A stretch of 39,700 nucleotides of DNA from Bacteroidota bacterium (lineage in GTDB: Bacteria > Bacteroidota > Bacteroidia > Bacteroidales > PUMT01), in the NCBI GenBank assembly GCA_003554865.1, contig PWHJ01000142.1, positions 1-39,700 of the forward strand. The letters are read 5' to 3'. The notes below the pieces were generated by a model. The model made no database searches. It worked only from the letters and a program-made list of their open reading frames with translations, and had not been told where the DNA came from. A program made the position numbers and the translations under genes. This document shows, piece by piece, positions 186-11,938 of this stretch (the stretch's first letter is position 1; every line of letters starts with the position of its first letter).

Positions 186-683
186 ATGAAGGCAACTAAG
201 AAGAAGATCCTGATCACAGATGATGACATTGATGTTATAACTGCTGTGACATCTATTTTAAAAAAGGAAGGCTATGAAGTGATCCCTGCCATGAACAAAA
301 AAGAGGCCCTGGAAATCCTTCGAAGTGAAAAACCCGATGTGGCCATACTGGACGTTATGATGACCACCCATTACGAGGGTTTTGAGCTTGCGCGCGAGAT
401 GCTGGAAAAACCTGTATTTAAAAATATTCCGGTGGTTATCCAGACATCGCTTGAGGTACTTGTAACCACAAAATCAGCCGTAAGGGAGATGGCACGCGAA
501 TACAGAAAAGACCCTCTTTATAAAGATCTGCAGGTATTGCTTTTGAAGAACCCCACAGATGGGACGGCCGGTGTTGATTACAGGGATGAAGAAGGAAGAA
601 GCCACTGGATTCCTGTGAACGGATTTATAAAGAAACCTGTGGATGCTCAGAAACTTTCAGCCGAGGTTGCAAGACATGTATAG
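186..683 (+). CDS. stand-alone response regulator receiver with long insert (copy 1)
   Basis: This is a 165-residue single receiver (CheY-like) domain with no output domain. It is probably a phosphoryl-group carrier or protein-binding switch in the cytoplasm. Visible receiver residues are the acidic pocket D12/D13, phospho-acceptor D56 in ILDVMM, the switch Thr at T87 and the conserved Lys K150 in KKPVD. T87 and K150 are 63 residues apart; in CheY the distance is 22. About 40 extra residues (roughly 99-145) are therefore inserted between beta-4 and beta-5, including the charged segments REYRKDP and DEEGRSHW. It is 71% identical to the next gene, which keeps the same insert. Both sit just upstream of hydCBA, so a partner in hydrogenase-linked signalling is likely. 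No terminator is evident after it. The receiver fold is certain; the role is inferred. Confidence 0.9.
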   Translation: MKATKKKILITDDDIDVITAVTSILKKEGYEVIPAMNKKEALEILRSEKPDVAILDVMMTTHYEGFELAREMLEKPVFKNIPVVIQTSLEVLVTTKSAVREMAREYRKDPLYKDLQVLLLKNPTDGTAGVDYRDEEGRSHWIPVNGFIKKPVDAQKLSAEVARHV

Positions 684-905: not shown

Positions 906-1406
906 ATGAAAACCACAGACAAAAAGATCTTAATCGTAGAGGACGACATTGATGTTATAAATGTAATGAAGTCGATCCTGACAAAAGAAGGCTACGAGGT
1001 AGCAACAGCGATGAACAAGAATGAGGGACTGGAAAAGCTTCGCAGCGAAAAGCCCGATCTTGCAATACTCGATGTTATGATGACCACTCATTACGAGGGC
1101 TTTGAGCTGGCCCAGGAGATTCTTAACAATCCCGAGTTTAAGGATACCCCGTTTTTGATACAGTCTTCAATTGATGTTCTGGTAACATCGAAAGCCTCTG
1201 TAAGGGATATGGCACGCGAGTACAGAAAGGATCCCAATTTCAAGGATCTGCAGGTGCTGCTGGTTAAGAACATAACCGACGGTTCGGCCGGAATCGATTA
1301 CAAGGATGAGGAAGGTAAAAGCCACTGGTTCCCTGTTCACGGTTTCATAAGAAAGCCTGTGGATGCACAGAAGCTTCTTGAGGAGATTGAAAAGCACATA
1401 AGTTAA
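906..1406 (+). CDS. stand-alone response regulator receiver with long insert (copy 2)
   Basis: This 166-residue receiver-only protein is a tandem paralogue of the preceding receiver: 117 of 165 aligned residues match by eye, with no gaps. It has E12/D13, phospho-acceptor D56, S88 near the switch position and K150 in RKPVD. The insert of about 40 residues before the last strand is better conserved than much of the domain: REYRKDP, KDLQVLL, DEEG.SHW and the FI.KPVDAQK end are all retained. That suggests the insert is a functional surface, perhaps for docking a kinase or the hydrogenase. Start at 906 has its own promoter upstream and lies 25 bases before hydC, so it is likely the first gene of the hyd operon. 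There is no DNA-binding domain. The specific partner is unknown. Confidence 0.9.
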   Translation: MKTTDKKILIVEDDIDVINVMKSILTKEGYEVATAMNKNEGLEKLRSEKPDLAILDVMMTTHYEGFELAQEILNNPEFKDTPFLIQSSIDVLVTSKASVRDMAREYRKDPNFKDLQVLLVKNITDGSAGIDYKDEEGKSHWFPVHGFIRKPVDAQKLLEEIEKHIS

Positions 1407-1431: not shown

Positions 1432-1899
1432 ATGGAGAACAATTTTAAGGAGATTTTAACCCGGTACCCCGAGGGGAGTGTTGAAAACCTGATACCCATA
1501 TTGCAGGATATACAGGAGGCAGAGGGTTATTTGTCGGAGGAATCTGTGGCAAGTGTGGCAAGGTATTTAGATATGCCGGCAAGTAAAATTTATGGAGAAG
1601 CCACATTTTACAACCAGTTTCGCTTCACCCCCCTTGGGAAGTACCATGTACAGGTATGCTGCGGGACCGCCTGTCATGTTTTGGGAGCAGCTACCGTTTT
1701 AGAGGAGATCCAGAAAAATATCGGTGTTGAGTCGGGACAGACATCAAAGGACGGATTGTTCAGTCTTGAGGTTGTTGCCTGTATAGGGGCTTGTGGATTG
1801 GCGCCTGTGATCTCCGTCAACGGAAATTTTCATGCCAAAGTAACAGGCGAGTCAATTAAAGAAATAATGGATAACTATCGTAATCAGGAAAAATCATGA
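1432..1899 (+). CDS. hydC: NAD-linked [FeFe] hydrogenase subunit HydC (NuoE-like, [2Fe-2S])
   Basis: This 155-residue protein is of the NuoE/24-kDa thioredoxin-like [2Fe-2S] family, the small subunit of trimeric HydABC hydrogenases. The N-terminal helical part contains YPEGSVENLIPILQDIQ. Ligand cysteines are visible in CCGTACH (about residues 77-82) and ACIGACG (C118 and C122), the expected C-x4-C...C-x3-C pattern. The gene overlaps hydB by four bases (ATGA), which implies translational coupling and a stoichiometric complex. In the known family the subunit relays electrons between the flavin subunit HydB and the iron-sulfur wires in the cytosol. A nuoE role in respiratory complex I is unlikely because no membrane nuo genes accompany it and hydA follows directly. 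Confidence 0.93.
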   Translation: MENNFKEILTRYPEGSVENLIPILQDIQEAEGYLSEESVASVARYLDMPASKIYGEATFYNQFRFTPLGKYHVQVCCGTACHVLGAATVLEEIQKNIGVESGQTSKDGLFSLEVVACIGACGLAPVISVNGNFHAKVTGESIKEIMDNYRNQEKS

Positions 1900-3848
1900 A
1901 TACTCAATATAACGACTCCGTAAAGGAGTTCCTAGTAAATGATGTTTTGAGGGATTTTACCGACAACTCCAACGACCCTGATCTGCTGGAAAAGATATCA
2001 GAATTGCGGCACGACAAGGTTGATGAGCCGGTGATTTATGTGGGAGCAGGCACATGCGGTCTTGGAGCGGGAGCTGGTAAAACACTTGAAGCTGTAAAAA
2101 ATTATATTAAGGAGAAGGGAGTGTCGGCCACAGTTACCGAGACCGGGTGTATCGGGCTTTGTGCTGTAGAACCGATAATGGATGTTCAGCTTCCCGGGTA
2201 TAACCGTGTTTCATTCCAAAATATCACAAGCGACAGGGTTGAGGCATTATTGGATGAGATCTTTCAATACCGGGTAAGCAGTGAAAATCTGCTGGGGCAA
2301 TTTGACACCCCTGGCTCAAAGGAGTGGGAAGGGGTGAAATACTTGCAAGAGCATCCTTTCTTTGCACCGCAAAAACGTCTGGTTTTAAAGAATTGCGGTG
2401 TAGTTAACCCGGTTGACATAAAGGAATATATTGCACGCGGGGGATATAAGAGTTATATGAAGACCCTGAACCTGTACTCCCCCCTTGAGGTTTGTGAGAT
2501 TATAGAGAAGAGTGGACTTAGAGGCAGGGGCGGGGGAGGATTTCCTACCGGCCGTAAATGGAAGTTTGCAAATTCCGAGGAGAGTGACCAGAAATACCTT
2601 ATCTGCAATGCAGATGAGGGGGACCCCGGTGCTTTTATGGACAGGGCGGTAATTGAAGGTGACCCTCACAGACTTATCGAGGGTATGGCAATCGGCGCCT
2701 ATGCTATTGGTGCCACAGAGGCTTATGTATATATCCGAGCCGAGTATCCTCTTGCCATACAGCGCCTTGAAATTGCTATCGAGCAGGCCAGGGATTATGG
2801 TCTGGTGGGGGAGAATATATTTGAAACCGGTGTGGATTTTGATATAAAGATCAAAAAAGGGGCAGGTGCATTTGTTTGCGGTGAGGAAACGGCACTTATA
2901 CACAGTATAGAAGGCAGAAGAGGAATGCCCCGTCCGAGGCCCCCTTTCCCGACCACCATAGGACTTTTTGGCAAGCCTTCGGTGATAAATAATGTTGAGA
3001 CCTATGCAAATGTTTCTGAAATATTGCTGAAAGGTCCTGAATGGTTTGCCTCCACCGGCACCGAAAACAGCAAGGGAACGAAAGTCTTTGCCCTTTCCGG
3101 GAAAATAGCGCTTACCGGACTTGTTGAGATACCCATGGGCACAACGGTCCGCGAGATTGTATTTGACATTGCCGGGGGAATTCTGGATAACCGGAAATTC
3201 AAAGCCGTTCAGATTGGAGGACCTTCCGGCGGATGTATTACAGAAGAAAACCTGGATATTCAGATAGATTATGAATCGCTTGTGAATGTGGGGGCAATGA
3301 TGGGCTCCGGCGGACTTGTAGTGATGGATGAGAATACATGCATGGTTGATGTTGCCAAATTTTTTATGGGATTCATCCAGCGTGAGAGCTGCGGAAAGTG
3401 TATCCCCTGCCGTGAAGGCACCAGAAGGCTTCTTGAGATCCTGGAAGGGATCACATCTAAGCCCGACGGCAATGATGAGACTGAAACACTCGACCGTTTC
3501 AAGGGGGTTATGCAGATTGAAAGCCTAAGTCGTGTAATAAGGGATACTTCGCTTTGCGGACTCGGGCAGACCGCTCCCAATCCTGTTATGAGCACCCATG
3601 AGAAATTCAGGGATGAATATGAGGCTCATCTCTATGACAGGCATTGCCCGGCCGGTGTTTGCCAGAACCTGAAGGTTTACAAGATAGACGTGGACAAATG
3701 TACCGGCTGTACGGTTTGTGTGAAAAAGTGCCCGGTTGATGCAATAATTGGTAGCAGGAAACAACCCCACTTTATTGTCGAGGATAAGTGTATAGGTTGC
3801 GGAGCTTGCTATGAAGCATGTAAGTTTGATGCAATTGAAGTAGTATAA
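1896..3848 (+). CDS. hydB: NAD-linked [FeFe] hydrogenase subunit HydB (NuoF-like flavoprotein)
   Basis: This 650-residue soluble flavoprotein, the NAD(H)-binding subunit of HydABC, has four parts in order. First is an N-terminal [2Fe-2S] thioredoxin-like module (GTCGLGAG... and TGCIGLC). Second is the NuoF-type FMN/NADH domain with GLRGRGGGGFPTG (about 207-219) and ADEGDPGAFMDR. Third is the 4Fe-4S motif ESCGKCIPCREGTRR (about 497-511). Last comes a bacterial ferredoxin tail with CTGCTVCVKKCP (about 602-613) and CIGCGACYEAC (about 632-642). The extra N- and C-terminal modules separate it from plain complex I NuoF and fit HydB of electron-bifurcating or bidirectional NAD hydrogenases. It overlaps hydC by four bases; hydA starts 21 bases after the stop. 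Bifurcation itself is inferred from family architecture. Confidence 0.95.
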   Translation: MNTQYNDSVKEFLVNDVLRDFTDNSNDPDLLEKISELRHDKVDEPVIYVGAGTCGLGAGAGKTLEAVKNYIKEKGVSATVTETGCIGLCAVEPIMDVQLPGYNRVSFQNITSDRVEALLDEIFQYRVSSENLLGQFDTPGSKEWEGVKYLQEHPFFAPQKRLVLKNCGVVNPVDIKEYIARGGYKSYMKTLNLYSPLEVCEIIEKSGLRGRGGGGFPTGRKWKFANSEESDQKYLICNADEGDPGAFMDRAVIEGDPHRLIEGMAIGAYAIGATEAYVYIRAEYPLAIQRLEIAIEQARDYGLVGENIFETGVDFDIKIKKGAGAFVCGEETALIHSIEGRRGMPRPRPPFPTTIGLFGKPSVINNVETYANVSEILLKGPEWFASTGTENSKGTKVFALSGKIALTGLVEIPMGTTVREIVFDIAGGILDNRKFKAVQIGGPSGGCITEENLDIQIDYESLVNVGAMMGSGGLVVMDENTCMVDVAKFFMGFIQRESCGKCIPCREGTRRLLEILEGITSKPDGNDETETLDRFKGVMQIESLSRVIRDTSLCGLGQTAPNPVMSTHEKFRDEYEAHLYDRHCPAGVCQNLKVYKIDVDKCTGCTVCVKKCPVDAIIGSRKQPHFIVEDKCIGCGACYEACKFDAIEVV

Positions 3849-3869: not shown

Positions 3870-5594
3870 ATGAGCTTTTTAATAAATGTAAACAACAAAG
3901 ATATAGAAGCAAGAGAAGGTGAGACCATTCTGGATTCATTGAATAGAGAGGGGTTAAATGTGCCTACGCTTTGTCACCTGAAAGGCAAGCTTCCCACAGG
4001 ATCATGCCGGATGTGTGTGGTGGAGGATATTAACTCGGGCAGGCTGGTTGCAGCATGTGCCAGTCCTGTTTACGAAGGAATGAAGATACAGACTCATTCC
4101 CACCGTGTAGTCGAATCACGCAAAATGATCGTGGAGCTTCTGCTTTCGAACCATCCCGATGACTGCCTTTATTGTGTAAGAAATAAAAACTGCGAGCTGC
4201 AGGACCTCTCAGATGAGCTTCAGGTACGTGAGCGGCGCATAAAGGGGAAAAAGAACAACATTAACCTTGACAGGTCAAGCCCCAGCATTGTGCGCGATCC
4301 TGACAAATGTATCCTGTGCGGTCGCTGTGTTCGCGTTTGCGAGGAAGTTATGGGAGTCTCCTGCATAGATTTCATAAACAGGGGCAGTGATTCTTTTGTC
4401 GGCCCGGCTTTCAATAAAAGTCTCAATACATCCAGCTGTGTGAAGTGCGGTCAATGCATCATGGTATGCCCAACAGGGGCACTGTCGGAGAAAAGTCACT
4501 TTCCGGAGCTTATATCAATGCTGAACAACCCTGAAAAGACGGTTGTGGTGCAGTATGCCCCTGCAATTTCAGTATCTCTGGCCGAGGAATTTGACATGCC
4601 TGCCGGGGTTGATATAACCGGCATTATGAATGCGGCACTGCGCAAAATTGGATTCAACTATGTATTTGATACCACCTTCACTGCCGATCTTACAATAATG
4701 GAAGAGGCAGGTGAGCTTGCTGAGCGTATCAATGAAGGCGGTAAGCTGCCTATGATAACAAGTTGCTGCCCGGGCTGGATAAAATTTGCCGAGCAGTTTT
4801 ATCCCGATATGCTGCCAAATCTTTCCACCTGCAAGTCACCTCAGCAGATGATGGGGGCCGTGATCAAGTCGTACTGGGCAGAAAAATCAGAAGTGAAGCC
4901 GGATGATATTTACTCAGTTTCTGTAATGCCATGTACTGCCAAGAAGTTCGAGGCCCAGCGTGAGGAGATGACCTCCAAGGGGATAAGTGATGTGGATGCT
5001 GTGATAACCACAAGAGAGCTTGGTCAGCTTATACGAATGTACGGTATTGACATAAACAGTATGGCGCCGGAAACCACTGATTCGCCTTTGGGTTCCAGAA
5101 GCTCCGCAGGCAAATTGTTCGCCGCATCGGGAGGTGTGATGGAGGCCGCCATGAGAACCGCTTACTATATGATCACCGGAGAGGAGCTGTTGCGCTTTAA
5201 GATCGAAGCTTTAAGAGGTATGGACGGCTCCAAGGAAGCCAGTGTAAAAATAGGGGATATGAATGTAAATGTGGCTGTTGTAAATGGACTGGCAAATGCC
5301 CGCAAGCTGATGGAAAAAGTTAAAAAAGGGGAAAAGGAATACCATTTCATTGAGGTAATGGCTTGTCCGGGTGGCTGCATCAACGGCGGAGGCCAGCATA
5401 TAGGGGCAAGCGAGGATGAGATTAAGGCAAGGATGAAGACATTGTATGATATAGATGATAAAGAAACCGTTAAGGTCTCTCATAAGAATCCGGAGATTGT
5501 AGAGTTGTATGAGAAGTTCCTGGGTAAGCCTATGGGTAAAAAATCCCATGAACTGCTTCATACAGATTATTTCAAAAGGGAAGTTCTGTTATAA
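3870..5594 (+). CDS. hydA: [FeFe] hydrogenase catalytic subunit HydA
   Basis: This 574-residue enzyme catalyses 2H+ + 2e- <-> H2. Domains in order: an N-terminal [2Fe-2S] (C35, C46, C49, C63), a His/Cys-ligated cluster motif (HPDDCLYCVRNKNC), two [4Fe-4S] motifs (CILCGRCVRVC, CVKCGQCIMVC), then the H-cluster domain. The three signature loops are intact: TSCCPGW (C299, C300), MPCTAKK (C355) and MACPGGC (C499, C503). The proton-path residues E279, E282, R286 and S319 fall at exactly the positions used in Clostridium pasteurianum CpI, which is also 574 residues, so the enzyme should be active. There is no C-terminal [2Fe-2S] extension. Together with hydC and hydB it forms a trimeric NAD/ferredoxin-type enzyme. 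The maturases HydE, HydF and HydG are not in the window. Confidence 0.96.
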   Translation: MSFLINVNNKDIEAREGETILDSLNREGLNVPTLCHLKGKLPTGSCRMCVVEDINSGRLVAACASPVYEGMKIQTHSHRVVESRKMIVELLLSNHPDDCLYCVRNKNCELQDLSDELQVRERRIKGKKNNINLDRSSPSIVRDPDKCILCGRCVRVCEEVMGVSCIDFINRGSDSFVGPAFNKSLNTSSCVKCGQCIMVCPTGALSEKSHFPELISMLNNPEKTVVVQYAPAISVSLAEEFDMPAGVDITGIMNAALRKIGFNYVFDTTFTADLTIMEEAGELAERINEGGKLPMITSCCPGWIKFAEQFYPDMLPNLSTCKSPQQMMGAVIKSYWAEKSEVKPDDIYSVSVMPCTAKKFEAQREEMTSKGISDVDAVITTRELGQLIRMYGIDINSMAPETTDSPLGSRSSAGKLFAASGGVMEAAMRTAYYMITGEELLRFKIEALRGMDGSKEASVKIGDMNVNVAVVNGLANARKLMEKVKKGEKEYHFIEVMACPGGCINGGGQHIGASEDEIKARMKTLYDIDDKETVKVSHKNPEIVELYEKFLGKPMGKKSHELLHTDYFKREVLL

Positions 5595-5612: not shown

Positions 5613-7601
5613 ATGGGACATGCAAACAGAGATAAGGTTGTAACAACGGTCAAGGGCAAATGCAGGGTATGTTTTACCTGTGTGAGAGAATGTCCTGCAA
5701 AAGCGATAAAAATTGTTGACGGACAGGCCGAGGTGCTGAGTGAAAGGTGCATTGGTTGCGGTAACTGTGTCAGCGTTTGCAGGCAGAATGCAAAGGTTGT
5801 CCTTGACCTTAAGGGTGAGGTTGAAAGTTTGCTGGCCAATAAGGATAAAAAGAATGTTGCACTTGTTGCACCCTCTTTCCCCGCGGAATTTACTGAACTG
5901 GAAGATTACAGGTTGCTTGTGGGAATGGTTCGCAAGCTGGGGTTTGACAAAGTAATGGAAGTTTCTTTCGGTGCCGATCTTGTGGCGCGTCAGTATAAGA
6001 AGCTGCTGGAGAGCGAAAACCAGGGCGACTATATCTCGTCAGACTGCCCGGCAATAGTGTTCTATATTGAGCATTACCATCCCGGTCTTGTAAGTCACCT
6101 TGCACCAATTGCATCACCGATGGTGGCCATATCAAGGCTGGCAAGGCACCTGCACGGTGAAGATATAAATACCGTTTTTATCGGCCCCTGCATCGCCAAA
6201 AAAGCCGAATCGGATGAAATAGATGTTGCCCTTACCTTTTCTGAGCTCAGGGAAATGTTTGAAAAATATTCAATAACGCCTGATAAGGTTGAACCATCTT
6301 ATTTTGATGGTCCGGCTTCAGGTATGGGGGCATTGTTTCCCTTGAGCAGGGGGTTGCTGCAAAATGTAAAAAAATCGGACAATATTGTTGAGGGTAATAT
6401 AATTGTCGATTCGGGCAAAACGCGGTTCAAGGAGGCTATAAGTGAGCTTGAAAGAGGAGAGATAGCCGGCAACAATCTCGAGCTGCTTTGCTGTAATGGC
6501 TGTATAATGGGACCGGGAATGACAGACAGGGAGAACTTTTATTATAAATGGTCCCAGATAGGCAAATATGTCAAAGCCAAGCTGCAGGGCATAGATACCC
6601 AAAAATGGAGGGATGACCTTGAAAAGTACGGGGAAATTATAGATCTTTCCCAGAAACACATGCCGCTTGACAGGCGTATAGAACGACCTGAGGAGCAAGA
6701 GGTTGAAAAAGTACTCAGGGAGATGGGCAAGGAAGATGAGTCAGATCTTCTTGATTGCGGGGCATGCGGATATGAAACATGCCGTGAACATGCCGTTGCC
6801 GTAGTGCAGGGATTTGCGGAGGATAAAATGTGTCTTCCCTACACGATAGAAAGGTTGCACCAGTACATTGAGCGGCTCAATTTGACCAATGAAAAGCTAA
6901 AGAATACAAAGCTTGAGCTGAGGCATTCGGAAAAGCTTGCACACATGGGCCAGATTGCCGCCGGAATTGCACATGAGCTGAATAACCCTCTGGGGGTAAT
7001 TACAATGTACAGCAATATTATCTATGAGGAGCTGGAGGAGAATGACCCCAAAAGAGATGAAGCTGATCTTATTGTGAAGCAGGCTGACAGGTGCAAGAAA
7101 ATTGTGAGCGGATTGCTGAATTTTGCAAGGAGCAACAAGACCAAACTCAGGAAAACCGATATGGCTGAGTTGGTTAACAGGAGCCTGGAATCTGTTGTAA
7201 TTCCCTCAAATGTTCAGGTTTCGGTCGATTCAGATCTGGATGATACGATGGCAGCTGTTGATCAGGAGCAAATGATGCAGGTTCTCACAAATCTTGAAAA
7301 AAATGCGGTTGAGGCTATGCCTGATGGCGGGGAGCTTAAGGTACACTTAAGCGGCAATAAGGAAAAAATTCATATTAGCATTACAGATACCGGCTGCGGT
7401 ATTCCTGAAGAGAATAAGGAGAAACTTTTCACTCCCTTTTTCACAACCAAGGATCTGGGCAAGGGAACGGGACTCGGGTTGCCCCAGGTTCACGGAATTG
7501 TAAAAATGCACCAGGGAAAAATCAATGTAAAATCAAATACAGAGCCTGAAAAAGGACCGACAGGGACGGAATTTATAATAACTATACCAAGAAACATTTA
7601 A
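5613..7601 (+). CDS. hydrogenase-like sensor histidine kinase (H-cluster domain fused to Fe-S and kinase domains)
   Basis: This 662-residue protein has no membrane segment. In order it has two [4Fe-4S] motifs (CRVCFTCVRECP and CIGCGNCVSVC), an [FeFe]-hydrogenase large-subunit-like domain (about 75-330), a four-Cys Fe-S motif (C382, C385, C390, C407, like PF04060), a short coiled linker, a HisKA domain with phospho-acceptor H454 in IAHELNNPLG, and a HATPase with DTGCGIPEENK and GKGTGLGLPQV. All four cysteines expected to hold the H-cluster remain (C145, C193, C293, C297). The proton-transfer Cys of TSCCPGW is replaced by Asp (D144 in SSDCPA), so turnover should be poor, as expected for a sensor. 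It follows hydA by 18 bases. It probably reports hydrogen or redox state to the neighbouring receivers. The function is inferred from domains. Confidence 0.9.
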   Translation: MGHANRDKVVTTVKGKCRVCFTCVRECPAKAIKIVDGQAEVLSERCIGCGNCVSVCRQNAKVVLDLKGEVESLLANKDKKNVALVAPSFPAEFTELEDYRLLVGMVRKLGFDKVMEVSFGADLVARQYKKLLESENQGDYISSDCPAIVFYIEHYHPGLVSHLAPIASPMVAISRLARHLHGEDINTVFIGPCIAKKAESDEIDVALTFSELREMFEKYSITPDKVEPSYFDGPASGMGALFPLSRGLLQNVKKSDNIVEGNIIVDSGKTRFKEAISELERGEIAGNNLELLCCNGCIMGPGMTDRENFYYKWSQIGKYVKAKLQGIDTQKWRDDLEKYGEIIDLSQKHMPLDRRIERPEEQEVEKVLREMGKEDESDLLDCGACGYETCREHAVAVVQGFAEDKMCLPYTIERLHQYIERLNLTNEKLKNTKLELRHSEKLAHMGQIAAGIAHELNNPLGVITMYSNIIYEELEENDPKRDEADLIVKQADRCKKIVSGLLNFARSNKTKLRKTDMAELVNRSLESVVIPSNVQVSVDSDLDDTMAAVDQEQMMQVLTNLEKNAVEAMPDGGELKVHLSGNKEKIHISITDTGCGIPEENKEKLFTPFFTTKDLGKGTGLGLPQVHGIVKMHQGKINVKSNTEPEKGPTGTEFIITIPRNI

Positions 7602-7613
7602 AATAATCAAGAT

Positions 7614-8012
7614 ATGAAGAATGAAGAAAAGAAAACAATATTTCTGGTTGACGATGATGCAGACTATGCTTTCCAGATGACCAAAATGCTTGAGAATATG
7701 GGCTATGAGGTTGTAAGCGCCAACGGGCAGAAAGAAGCCGAGGAGAAGATTGAAAATATAAAGCCCGATCTGGCCATTATTGATCTGATGATGGAGAACA
7801 AGGACAGCGGTTTTATTTTAAGTCACCGCTTGAAAAACCGTTTTCCCGATGTTCCCATAATAATTGCAACGGCACTGACATCTGAGACCGGCATGATGTT
7901 CAGCCTCGAAGATGAGGAAGACAAAAAATGGATCAAAGCCGATGCTTATCTGGAAAAGGGACTAAGGCAGGATCAGCTGGAAAGGGAAATAAATAAACTG
8001 TTAAAATTATGA
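7614..8012 (+). CDS. stand-alone response regulator receiver
   Basis: This is a 132-residue single receiver domain. The acidic triad is D13/D14, the phospho-acceptor is D57 in IIDLMM, the switch Thr is T86 and the conserved Lys is K115, followed by Gly instead of Pro. T86 and K115 are 29 residues apart, slightly longer than the usual 22. Segments such as IDLMMENKDSGF and LEDEEDKKWIK resemble LDVMMTTHYEGF and DEEGRSHW of the two receivers at the head of the cluster, so it looks like a trimmed relative of that family. It starts 12 bases after the sensor kinase and overlaps the next gene by four bases (ATGA). The most likely role is direct phosphoryl acceptor of the upstream hydrogenase-like kinase. 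It has no output domain. Confidence 0.9.
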   Translation: MKNEEKKTIFLVDDDADYAFQMTKMLENMGYEVVSANGQKEAEEKIENIKPDLAIIDLMMENKDSGFILSHRLKNRFPDVPIIIATALTSETGMMFSLEDEEDKKWIKADAYLEKGLRQDQLEREINKLLKL

Positions 8013-9127
8013 GTACACTCAAGTTGCTGATAGTCGACGATGAGCCCGGCATACGGTCGGGTGCTAAAAGGGTGCTGCAGGATTTTTCTTTTGGTTACCC
8101 TTTTATGGACGAGGATTTTGAATTTGAGATACTTGAGGCTGAAACCGGTGAGAAAGCAATAGAAATAATAGAATCCACCGATGTTGATATAATATTGCTT
8201 GACAACAAGCTTCCCGGAATAGACGGTATAGAGGTACTCGAGCATATAAATAATAAAGAGTATGATATTGCGGTGATGATGATCACTGCATATGCATCAC
8301 TTGATCTTGCTATCAAGGCTACAAATTATGGGGCCTACAATTTTGTGCCCAAGCCTTTCAAGCCTCAGGAGCTGAGAATATCGGTCGAAAATATCACCAA
8401 AAACCTTTACCTGAAACGGATGACCCGTGCAATGCAGGAGGGGGGTGAACAGAACAGGTTCCAGTTCCTCTCGGTTTTGTCTCATGAGCTAAAATCACCC
8501 ATTAACGCAATTGAGGGTTACCTGAGGATGATGAGGGAAAAACAGGTTGGGGATACTATTGATGATTATATGGAGATGATAGAGCGCTCTATGGAGCGGA
8601 TAAAGGGTATGCGCTCGCTTATTTCCGACCTGCTTGATCTGACAAAAATTGAATCCGGTGCCAAAAGGCGTGATCTTCAAAAGATTGATATTATGGAGAT
8701 TGCAAAATCATCGGTTGACTCATTTGAACCGATGGCCTCTCAAAGCAACATCAGGATAAATCTTCATGGGGATGAAAATATTTATATGACTGCCGATAAA
8801 AACGAGATGGAGATAATTTTTAACAACCTCGTTTCAAATGCAGTTAAATACAACAAGGAGGGAGGAGAGGTATATGTTTCCATCAGTGAGGATGAGGGGG
8901 AAATATCAATAAGTGTTGAAGATACGGGCATTGGAATGAGCCAAGAGGACAAGCAGCATCTTTTCCAGGATTTTGTTAGGATAAAAAACACAAGGACAAA
9001 ATTTGTTCCGGGCAGCGGACTGGGACTGTCTATTACGAAAAAAATGGTGGACCTCTATAACGGCACCATTGATGTCGAGAGTGAACCGGATGTTGGAAGC
9101 AAGTTTATTGTAAGATTTCCGTTATAA
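8009..9127 (+). CDS. hybrid receiver-histidine kinase (REC-HisKA-HATPase)
   Basis: This 372-residue cytosolic protein begins with a receiver (D10/D11, phospho-acceptor D65 in LLLDNKLPGIDG, conserved Lys in PKPFKP). A HisKA domain follows with H159 in LSHELKSPINA, then an HATPase with NNLVSNAVKYN, DTGIGMS and GSGLGLSITKK. The receiver sits at the N terminus, so phosphorylation may gate the attached kinase; this is common for relay integrators. No transmembrane segment or PAS domain is visible. The ATGA overlap with the preceding receiver indicates co-translation. It probably links the hydrogenase-like kinase and its receiver to a later target, perhaps the inserted receivers at the front of the operon. 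Those partner assignments are inferred from gene order only. Confidence 0.92.
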   Translation: MSTLKLLIVDDEPGIRSGAKRVLQDFSFGYPFMDEDFEFEILEAETGEKAIEIIESTDVDIILLDNKLPGIDGIEVLEHINNKEYDIAVMMITAYASLDLAIKATNYGAYNFVPKPFKPQELRISVENITKNLYLKRMTRAMQEGGEQNRFQFLSVLSHELKSPINAIEGYLRMMREKQVGDTIDDYMEMIERSMERIKGMRSLISDLLDLTKIESGAKRRDLQKIDIMEIAKSSVDSFEPMASQSNIRINLHGDENIYMTADKNEMEIIFNNLVSNAVKYNKEGGEVYVSISEDEGEISISVEDTGIGMSQEDKQHLFQDFVRIKNTRTKFVPGSGLGLSITKKMVDLYNGTIDVESEPDVGSKFIVRFPL

Positions 9128-9176: not shown

Positions 9177-11264
9177 ATGAAAAAGTTTTACCTGCCGCTG
9201 AAGCTTCGTCTTTTTTTGCCCGTAAGTTTACTTATTGTGATAATAGTGGCAAGTATCACTGTTTTTTTCGTGAAAAAATCACTTGATGTTTTTCACTCCC
9301 AGATTGAGGATAATCTGAGAGTTGAGGTTCGTACAATTTCCAAAATGTTTGAACGCGAGGCCACCCTGAAAAACGAAAGGGTCAGAACCAATCTGAGGGT
9401 GGCTGCCGCCGCTTTCTCTGACAGTGATTTAAAAATAAGTCCGCAAACCTTCACCGTTGAAGCTGAAAACCAAATTACCGGAGAAATATACGATGCCCGG
9501 CTGAACAGGTGGTATCTGGAAAATGAGCCGTTATACGCCAGCAAATGGTTTGTGGATAGTCTGCAGAATTTGCTCGGCTCGACCGTTACAATCTTTCAAA
9601 AATCAGACAGCGGATTTGTGAGGATGTCAACCAATGTTCTCACAAGAGAAGGTGAGAGGGCGGTTGGAACGTATATCCCTATGGATTCACCCGTGAGTCG
9701 TTCAATATCGGAAGGGGAGACCTACTACGGGCGTGCCTTTGTTGTGGATGACTGGTATGTTACTGCCTATGAACCTTTAATTTATAATGGTCAGCTGGTG
9801 GGAATGATATATGTGGGAGACAGGGAAAAGAACCTGGATAAACTGAAAGATATACTTTATGACCTTAAAATAGGTAAAAGCGGTTATCCTTTTGTCTTCG
9901 ACAGGGAAGGCTATCTTATGATCCATCCTGAAAGAGAGGGGGAGTTCTGGGGCGACAGCCTTCTTTTCAGGCGGGTCAGGGAAAAAGGAGAGGGTGTGAT
10001 TGATTACCGCCTGGAAGGAGAAGGTAAAACGATGGCTTTTGAATATTTTGAAGATTTTGAAGTTTACGTTGCCGCATCTGTTTACCCTCACAAGGAAACT
10101 GCCGAGCTAAGAGAAGATGCAATTTTTGGTGCAATTGTTACAGCCGGTGTTTCAATATTGCTGCTTTTGGGATTTATATACTTTTTTACAACAGAACGCA
10201 TTTACAGTTTTTTCACTGAGCTTCAAAAGTCAAGGGAAAAAATCAGCAGGATGAGCCGGGCACTTAAAGAGTCGGAGGAGCGTTACAGGAAATTGTTTGA
10301 CAGTACCGGAGATGATATTTTTGTAACCGATATTGATGAAAATATTGTTGAAGTAAACAATGCTGCCTGCGAAACACTGGGATATACAAGAAGTGAATTG
10401 CTGAGAAAGAAAATGTCTGACCTGAAACCGGAAAAATACAGGGAAGAGGTTGCCGAAAACCGCAGGATTATTTTTGAAAAAGGAAGTCACTCTTTTGAAT
10501 CCGAGCATATTACAAAAGCGGGTGAGATTATTCAGGTTGAATTTGCAAGCAGACTGGTTAATTATGGTAACGAGAAGCTCGTTTTAAGCGTAGTAAGGAA
10601 TATAAGCAAGCGCATTGAGTACGAGCGCCAGATATTAAGTGCAATTATCAGGGGGGAAGAGCGTGAAAGGAAACGTTTTGCCAGGGAGATGCATGACGGC
10701 CTGGGTCCGTTGCTTTCAACAATTAAGCTTTATATAAATGAGCTGGGATCTATTTCATTGAGTGAGGGTGAAAGAAAAGAACTTATGAGTCATACCAACG
10801 AGCTCATTGACGAAGCGGTAAATTCGACTCGCACCATATCGGACAACCTGATGCCCACCGTTATTAACTCTTATGGTCTGGTTAAGGCCGTACAGGCATT
10901 TTGCGACAAGGTTAACAAGACCAACCGGCTGGATATCTCTTTTAAAACCGAAAACATTGACCAAAGACTTGAAGGGAATGTGGAGATTATTCTTTTCAGG
11001 GTTATAAGTGAGCTTATCAACAACACTATTAAGCACGCAGAGGCGGAAAATGTATATATACTCCTGAGAAAAAAAGACGGCAGCCTGACTCTTTATTTCA
11101 AAGATGACGGATTAGGCTTTGATTCCGATGAGGTTATTTATTCGCAAAACAAGGGAATGGGATTGAAGAATATAATCAGCCGTGTCAGGTCAATAAGCGG
11201 TAAGTATACTATCAACAGCAGTCCGGGAGAAGGTTTTTCTATTAAAATTGAAATAAATATTTAA
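9177..11264 (+). CDS. membrane sensor histidine kinase, Cache-PAS-HisKA_3 (NarX/DegS type)
   Basis: This 695-residue inner-membrane kinase has a short cytoplasmic N terminus, TM1 about residues 10-32 and a large periplasmic Cache-type sensor region (about 35-315, resembling Cache_3-Cache_2 fusions, with VGMIYVGDREKN and GYPFVFDREGYL). TM2 is at about 320-345. A PAS domain (about 362-485, SEERYRKLFDSTGDDIF) precedes the HisKA_3 dimerisation helix with H506 in REMHDGLGPLLS and a C-terminal HATPase (DDGLGFD, GMGLKNI). It starts 49 bases after the receiver-kinase and is followed after 11 bases by a NarL-type regulator, its evident partner. The periplasmic ligand cannot be told from sequence; Cache domains often bind small organic molecules. 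Its inclusion in the hydrogenase operon is likely but not proven. Confidence 0.93.
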   Translation: MKKFYLPLKLRLFLPVSLLIVIIVASITVFFVKKSLDVFHSQIEDNLRVEVRTISKMFEREATLKNERVRTNLRVAAAAFSDSDLKISPQTFTVEAENQITGEIYDARLNRWYLENEPLYASKWFVDSLQNLLGSTVTIFQKSDSGFVRMSTNVLTREGERAVGTYIPMDSPVSRSISEGETYYGRAFVVDDWYVTAYEPLIYNGQLVGMIYVGDREKNLDKLKDILYDLKIGKSGYPFVFDREGYLMIHPEREGEFWGDSLLFRRVREKGEGVIDYRLEGEGKTMAFEYFEDFEVYVAASVYPHKETAELREDAIFGAIVTAGVSILLLLGFIYFFTTERIYSFFTELQKSREKISRMSRALKESEERYRKLFDSTGDDIFVTDIDENIVEVNNAACETLGYTRSELLRKKMSDLKPEKYREEVAENRRIIFEKGSHSFESEHITKAGEIIQVEFASRLVNYGNEKLVLSVVRNISKRIEYERQILSAIIRGEERERKRFAREMHDGLGPLLSTIKLYINELGSISLSEGERKELMSHTNELIDEAVNSTRTISDNLMPTVINSYGLVKAVQAFCDKVNKTNRLDISFKTENIDQRLEGNVEIILFRVISELINNTIKHAEAENVYILLRKKDGSLTLYFKDDGLGFDSDEVIYSQNKGMGLKNIISRVRSISGKYTINSSPGEGFSIKIEINI

Positions 11265-11275
11265 TACTTTTAGAT

Positions 11276-11938
11276 ATGCATGCCACTATAAAAGTAATGA
11301 TAGTTGACGACCACGAGATCTTTCGCAACGGTTTAAAAATGGTGCTGGGGAAGCTTAAATATCTGGAGATAGCGGGAGAGGCTTCCGACGGGAACTCTTT
11401 TTTGGAAATGCTTGATGAAACCGAGGCAGACATTGTTCTGATGGATATTGAAATGCCCGGAATGAACGGTATTGAGGCAACCGAGGCTGTCCTGAAGAAA
11501 AAGCCGGATCTCAAAGTTATTGCACTTACAATGTTCGGTGATGACGAATACATTCAAAGTATGCTGGATGCCGGTGCAAAAGGTTTTCTCATGAAGAACA
11601 TCAACAAGGAAAATCTTGACAGGGCCATCCAGACAGTTTACAACGGAGGGAACTATTTTTCCGAGGAGCTTTTTGAATTCTTCACAAGGCAACTGACAAA
11701 AGAGAAGGAGAAGGATAAGGAGAAGGATGAGGAGAAACTTAAGCTCACCCGCAGGGAAAAGGAGATCCTTCAGCTGCTGTGTGAAGGGCTGACCAACAAG
11801 GAAATAGCGGATGCCCTTTTTATAAGTGAGCGAACTGTTCTGGGACATAAGACCAATTTGCTAACCAAGACCAATACAAAGAATTCTTTGAGCCTTATGG
11901 CATATGCAATAAAGAACAACCTGGTAGTAATAAAGTAA
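11276..11938 (+). CDS. NarL/LuxR-family response regulator
   Basis: This 220-residue transcription factor has a receiver at residues 1-125 (D11/D12, phospho-acceptor D57 in VLMDIEMPGMNG) and a LuxR/GerE helix-turn-helix at about 155-215 (LTRREKEILQLLCEGLTNKEIADAL). The two are joined by a highly charged linker made of Lys, Glu and Asp (about 142-153). It is the only protein among the five receivers in the cluster with a DNA-binding output, and it lies 11 bases behind the HisKA_3 kinase that normally partners this regulator type. It may transmit the combined signal to target promoters, possibly including the one at 801-831. That target is a guess. Convergent kynU begins its coding end 88 bases downstream. 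Confidence 0.94.
   Translation: MHATIKVMIVDDHEIFRNGLKMVLGKLKYLEIAGEASDGNSFLEMLDETEADIVLMDIEMPGMNGIEATEAVLKKKPDLKVIALTMFGDDEYIQSMLDAGAKGFLMKNINKENLDRAIQTVYNGGNYFSEELFEFFTRQLTKEKEKDKEKDEEKLKLTRREKEILQLLCEGLTNKEIADALFISERTVLGHKTNLLTKTNTKNSLSLMAYAIKNNLVVIK
11705..11728 (+). repeat. two-copy 12-base tandem repeat in regulator linker
   Basis: The unit AAGGAGAAGGAT occurs twice exactly (11705-11716 and 11717-11728) and continues imperfectly afterwards. It encodes the Lys/Glu/Asp linker between receiver and DNA-binding domain of the NarL-type regulator. The unit is a multiple of three, so slippage would change linker length without shifting frame. Confidence 0.6.

Follow-up and report, generated by a model that had tools for sequence, protein, structure and literature searches.

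The window analyzed here, a 39,700-nucleotide stretch of a Bacteroidota contig (PWHJ01000142.1), encodes next to a hydrogenase gene a 662-aa protein (5613..7601; all window features are on the + strand) that joins a hydrogenase-type domain to a histidine kinase, and that has aspartate (D144) where catalytic [FeFe] hydrogenases have a proton-transfer cysteine. This raises the questions of whether the protein is a sensor that carries an H-cluster, what it would read, and what the aspartate contributes.

Architecture and genomic setting of the sensor kinase

The gene is an intact, complete open reading frame. Two ferredoxin-type [4Fe-4S] sites at residues 15-60 (5655..5792; C17, C20, C23, C27 and C46, C49, C52, C56; Pfam Fer4) are followed by an H-cluster domain at residues 79-301 (5847..6515; PF02906, Fe_hyd_lg_C, E 2e-45), a Cx2Cx4Cx16C Fe-S motif (6756..6833; C382, C385, C390, and C407; PF04060 at residues 380-409), a HisKA dimerization/phosphoacceptor domain at residues 445-508 (6945..7136) with H454 in HELNNP, and an ATP-binding HATPase_c domain at residues 550-660 (7260..7592) in which N560/N564, D592, G594, G596, and G618-G622 are conserved. 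The cysteines of the ferredoxin sites and of the Fe-S motif are invariant in 59 aligned relatives, as is H454, and the H-box, N, G1, F, and G2 boxes of a HisKA histidine kinase are all present. The initial annotation described the four-Cys motif as joined to the kinase without a PAS domain, and a Pfam scan of the 662 residues agrees; the spacing between motif and HisKA is only ~35 residues, which leaves no room for one. An AlphaFold2 model (mean pLDDT 81.5) matches [FeFe] hydrogenases over residues ~5-353, with Z scores of 39 for CbA5H, 37 for CpI, and 30 for the CpI C299D variant (6glz), and the matches to CpI and CbA5H argue that the likeness of the H-cluster domain is not due to chance.

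The four ligand cysteines of the H-cluster domain (see below), the N-terminal 2[4Fe-4S] region, and the C-terminal Cx2Cx4Cx16C are traits of group C (M2f/HydDB C3), and the last of these matches exactly the motif reported for sensory M2e/M2f hydrogenases (PMC8163306). M2f as characterized has a PAS domain, which the sensor lacks. The catalytic relay of group A (C299-E279-E282-R286-S319) is not present, and the sensor departs from group D (M2e; TamHydS) in having L248 at the E252 position and in having a kinase. TmHydS of Thermotoga maritima (group C, M2f) shares with the sensor the N-terminal [4Fe-4S] region, an H-cluster domain that lacks the group A relay, the Cx2Cx4Cx16C motif, and Gly at the M353 position; it differs in that PAS takes the place of the kinase, the proton site is Ala131, and CpI F417 is matched by Tyr rather than the sensor's Phe. 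TamHydS of Thermoanaerobacter mathranii is likewise a sensory-type [FeFe] hydrogenase with a C-terminal FeS motif and no PAS domain, and has a kinase-like gene nearby, but it has no fused kinase, carries Ala137 at the proton site, and has an E252-E289 relay. A closer parallel is BfuT of Hydrogenedentota, described in the passages of PMC11406978 on these enzymes, where PAS is not a requirement, as a group C3 hydrogenase that has a histidine-kinase domain, serves as subunit T of sub-type V BfuABC, and lies beside a group A3 HydABC; the kind of protein to which the sensor belongs is thus already known. Locus L116, a homologue from the same genome as the example in those passages (CSSed162cmA_463), is 50% identical to the sensor in the best segment and falls among the sensors in our tree, and we infer that it is the sub-type V T gene. 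The host phylum of BfuT differs from that of the sensor, and at the residue equivalent to D144 L116 has Ser, while L109 and L117 have Thr.

The sensor gene lies in a conserved operon. Upstream of it are hydC (1432..1899; NuoE-like subunit), hydB (1896..3848; NuoF-like, with a C-terminal 2[4Fe-4S]), both identified by Pfam, and hydA (3870..5594), the catalytic subunit, which scores above the NF040763 cut-off (NCBIfam group A6) and has TSCCPGW, the proton relay, and EERCS/MKF intact. Downstream, also by Pfam, are a stand-alone receiver (REC; 7614..8012), the likely phosphate acceptor, which adjoins the sensor across phyla, and a REC-HisKA-HATPase hybrid (8009..9127) conserved in the operon. The order hydC-hydB-hydA-sensor-REC-REC/HK is kept in Bacteroidota, Myxococcota, and Neomarinimicrobiota; Planctomycetota and Melainabacteria have almost the same order. 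Further on are a Cache-PAS-HisKA_3 kinase (9177..11264; Pfam), found near the operon in several relatives, and a LuxR-type response regulator (11276..11938), which Pfam and the neighborhood comparison make a candidate transcriptional output.

PF02906 matches just two proteins of this genome, both encoded at this locus, and the HydE, HydF, and HydG of the genome score over curated cut-offs. SAM motifs are present in HydE and HydG, and HydG, which also has CxxC-x22-C, carries both of its cluster motifs, so the H-cluster can be built and a pseudo-sensor without cofactor assembly is not supported for this genome. HydF has Q instead of H before its CxxC. Among relatives with the sensor, HydG exceeds the cut-off in 37/40; HydG scores in relatives fall into two groups, most of the order lying at about 490-530 bits and genomes G023 and G073 at 866-934 bits. 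Pfam and this setting, with catalytic HydABC adjoining and maturases in the genome, thus bear out the earlier view that a complete kinase here carries a sensor domain of the H-cluster type. The sensor kinase is real and conserved, and it probably bears an H-cluster. We favor, with reasonable though not high confidence, the reading that it combines a sensory [FeFe] hydrogenase of group C type (HydDB C3-like) with a histidine kinase of its own and informs its hydCBA operon of H2 or redox state.

Cluster ligands, the L3 loop, and the residue at the proton-exchange site

We compared 157 sensor kinases, 116 distinct ones and 41 more from Planctomycetota, other phyla, and more distant families of the phylum sample. 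C145 (6045..6047; CpI C300), C193 (6189..6191; CpI C355), and C297 (6501..6503; the bridging ligand, CpI C503) are invariant in the 116 and in the 41, and K196 (6198..6200), at the CpI K358 position, is present in 116/116. These three cysteines and C293 had been proposed as the cluster ligands; all four are where they were said to be, but the remaining ligand, equivalent to CpI C499, is C294 (6492..6494). C294 is invariant (116/116 and 41/41), whereas position 293 varies among the 116 (C 93, A 12, S 9, F 1, T 1) and among the other 41 (F 31, C 6, A 4), and in alignments made by phmmer with the HydA of T. maritima and of T. kivui, C294 again falls on the ligand position, with a one-residue gap. 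C293 is thus rejected as a ligand, a change of numbering that leaves four cysteines at H-cluster positions, and homologues that lack them are not found among the 157. With the ligand at C294, the gap makes the L3 loop one residue short, the motif being C-x2-C in 115/116 sensor kinases rather than the canonical C-x3-C. Because this loop is shorter than in characterized H-cluster proteins, the geometry of the cluster is uncertain, which counts against our preferred reading.

D144 (6042..6044) aligns with CpI C299, the proton-exchange site, in a MAFFT alignment, and with the Asp of the C299D variant 6glz in the phmmer alignment; the original observation that Asp replaces the first Cys of TSCCPGW is therefore correct. 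The residues at this position are D 79, T 17, S 13, A 3, N 3, and P 1 in the 116, and P 20, A 9, S 7, and T 5 in the other 41, so that Asp occurs in 79/157 sensor kinases and Cys in none of the 157. Partner HydA proteins have Asp at this position in 6/105, and the PAS-type paralogues discussed below in 0/41. The sequences with Asp group together on the tree in a single Bacteroidota clade (75 D + 2 N of 77; SH-aLRT 99), with two changes between D and non-D in all, and in a larger quick tree the smallest clade containing every D has 75 D + 1 N (support 87). No Asp was found outside the lineage of the window in 16 newly sampled sensors from Planctomycetota and other phyla or in 25 that represent different families within the phylum sample. 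Asp at site 144 is a lineage marker of single origin, fixed in one Bacteroidota clade, and the idea of an oddity unique to this protein is rejected. Related sensors carry T, S, P, or A at the site, and a direct step from Cys to Asp is accordingly unlikely. Four early-branching Bacteroidota sensors (L114, L115, L118, and L119, from metagenome-assembled genomes named CSSed) have Ser and lie outside the Asp clade.

The surroundings of D144 differ from those of the catalytic site. By alignment, CpI E279 is replaced by Y, E282 by L, and S319 by A, and R286 falls in a gap; M353 is G and M497 is L. Replacement of E279, E282, and S319 makes fast proton transfer in the sensor unlikely. The group D donor position is L248 and its neighbor E289 is E290, again by alignment. 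D144 therefore has no known relay behind it.

The PAS-type paralogue and the partner HydA

Many Bacteroidota have a second paralogue of ~625 aa, divergently encoded and with weak PAS matches. Among 41 of these, L1 has Asn in 26, K358 is lost in 38, and C499 is lost in 16. One of them (L041:2731-4677, - strand) lacks all four H-cluster ligand cysteines (replaced by D, L, K, and F), and apparently derives from an H-cluster sensor that lost its cofactor.

Presence of the paralogue coincides with loss of the HydA relay. All five relay residues (E279, E282, R286, C299, and S319) are intact in the partner HydA at 1/43 loci with a PAS paralogue versus 47/56 without, the nine exceptions without it being mostly contigs that end before the place of the paralogue, or genomes with the paralogue on another contig. 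The association (Fisher p 1e-17) is overstated by this test because there are only three independent changes on the tree, although all three agree. Loci L033-L041, L055-L059, and about 20 others (e.g., L074, L087, and L142) show the substitutions in HydA, with C299 replaced by S, A, D, or H, E279 by M, L, I, or Q, and the ligand cysteines kept. The window locus is of the intact HydA type and has no PAS paralogue. A different variation is seen in partner HydA proteins of other phyla (e.g., L109, L121, L136, and L141), where L1 is TSCSPGW, with Ser at the CpI C300 ligand position (23/105 HydA proteins) and the relay intact; Ser at this [4Fe-4S] ligand position is also remarked on in the passages of PMC11406978 on these proteins. 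The window has two similar tandem receiver-only proteins upstream of hydC, identified by Pfam (186..683 and 906..1406, the second also compared across relatives); a receiver of this type stands at the same place in intact-type loci, and none was seen upstream of hydC in the paralogue-type loci examined.

The hydrogenase subunits and the sensor also differ in how far they have diverged. Median identity of HydA to that of the window is 51.6% in loci with the paralogue versus 66.2% in those without, and HydB and HydC are likewise more diverged in paralogue-bearing loci, whereas sensor identity is the same (55.1 versus 55.6%, p 0.76). In this comparison HydB keeps its main Fe-S cysteines (35/35), its N-terminal ones being partly lost. 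By our reading of the match list, genomes with a PAS paralogue usually have one or two further high-scoring HydA proteins. HydABC thus diverges where the sensor does not, which suggests that signaling is what selection maintains in the operon. We offer tentatively, as less likely than not, the idea that some Bacteroidota have turned the operon to a sensory use: with the PAS paralogue present, HydA ligands kept but its relay lost, HydABC evolving faster, and only the Asp sensor constrained, HydABC might feed H2/NADH input into a kinase complex as a subunit without turnover, and residue 144 (D versus T, S, P, or A) might be a natural setting of the H2 threshold.

Probable signal and possible role of the aspartate

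Sensing of H2 or redox state through the H-cluster of this kinase is rather probable on the sequence evidence. One alternative is a domain with a [4Fe-4S] cluster alone, in which the short L3 keeps out the 2Fe unit and the signal read is not H2 but electrons that come from HydABC or ferredoxin. The L3 of 115/116 sensors is as this would predict, and the nearest PAS paralogues persist though often without the C499 ligand and nearly always without K358; however, the sensors never lose any ligand or K358, unlike those paralogues, and nearly all sensor genomes have maturases. The 95%-complete genome G057 (locus L055) can be read either way. It has a sensor, a degenerate HydA, and a PAS paralogue, with HydE, HydF, and HydG undetected, but it also has a separate high-scoring HydA, so the missing maturases may reflect an assembly gap, and we do not take this genome as evidence for a sensor that functions with no H-cluster. 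Overall, we consider the electron-only alternative improbable, though worth keeping in mind.

For D144, a specific tuning role is possible but falls somewhat short of an even chance, and only a little less likely is that Asp has no special role, the site drifting freely among D, T, S, P, and A in sensory hydrogenases and Asp being the inherited accident of one clade. Six different residues and 23 state changes occur at this site on the tree, sensory hydrogenases at large vary here (Ala about 43%, Cys 17%, Pro 10%, Ser 10%; PMC10055695), and relatives of the same architecture with T, S, P, or A show that no acid is required, which counts against our preferred reading. Drift does not readily account for D in 75/77 sequences of a clade that are otherwise only ~55% identical, with Asn as the sole alternative. 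The initial annotation saw in Asp another solution to the task of the Cys, and true hydrogenases do tolerate it: Asp is the only exchange that leaves CaHydA highly active (C298D, k_cat about half; PMC3485046), and C-to-D variants keep the cluster (PMC3485046, PMC9563086). A further alternative is an active hydrogenase that signals in addition to its biased catalysis, which would run towards H2 evolution and use Asp as a working proton donor; C-to-D shifts the bias in this direction, whereas C-to-S favors H2 oxidation (PMC9563086). However, CpI C299D (6glz) and CaHydA C298D, while having Asp at the same structural position, are engineered catalytic enzymes with an otherwise intact relay, and the sensor has Y, L, and A for E279, E282, and S319 and Leu for the group D donor; we regard an H2-evolving enzyme as very unlikely.

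Returning to a group C-type sensor that bears an H-cluster, we envisage that HydE, HydF, and HydG would build the cluster on C145, C193, C294, and C297, and that H2, or electrons arriving via the N-terminal [4Fe-4S] clusters, would alter its state. A conformational change could pass through the C-terminal FeS domain and helix 408-445 to HisKA, altering phosphorylation of H454, with the phosphate moving to the REC protein (7614-8012), the REC-kinase (8009-9127), or both, and thence influencing transcription. The C-terminal cluster of TamHydS is not reduced by H2 (PMC13104023), which counts against this path. By analogy with C-to-D mutants of catalytic enzymes, in which H2 oxidation falls to 0.02-4% of wild type and Hox is favored (PMC9563086), D144, beside the ADT bridge and without a relay, would slow H2 oxidation and favor Hox, giving a slow sensor with a high H2 threshold. 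These mutants are of group A enzymes, and the analogy may not hold for a sensor, as illustrated by TmHydS, where A131C lowers activity (PMC10055695).

The passages of PMC11406978 on BfuT contain no analysis of the proton site or of a short L3, and in those parts of the cited literature that deal with such hydrogenases we found no description of the fixed Asp, the short L3, or the pattern of partner HydA decay. The best-studied sensory [FeFe] hydrogenases, TmHydS and TamHydS, lack a fused kinase and have Ala at the proton site. The protein described here unites sensor and kinase in a single chain, which makes its signal output directly assayable. Evolution offers matched sets of sensors that differ at one site (Asp, Thr, Ser, Pro, or Ala), and because the mutants predict opposite shifts for Asp (slow H2 oxidation, Hox favored) and Ser (H2 oxidation favored), the role of the site is testable. 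The lineage-fixed Asp is thus a natural test of how H2 sensors are tuned.
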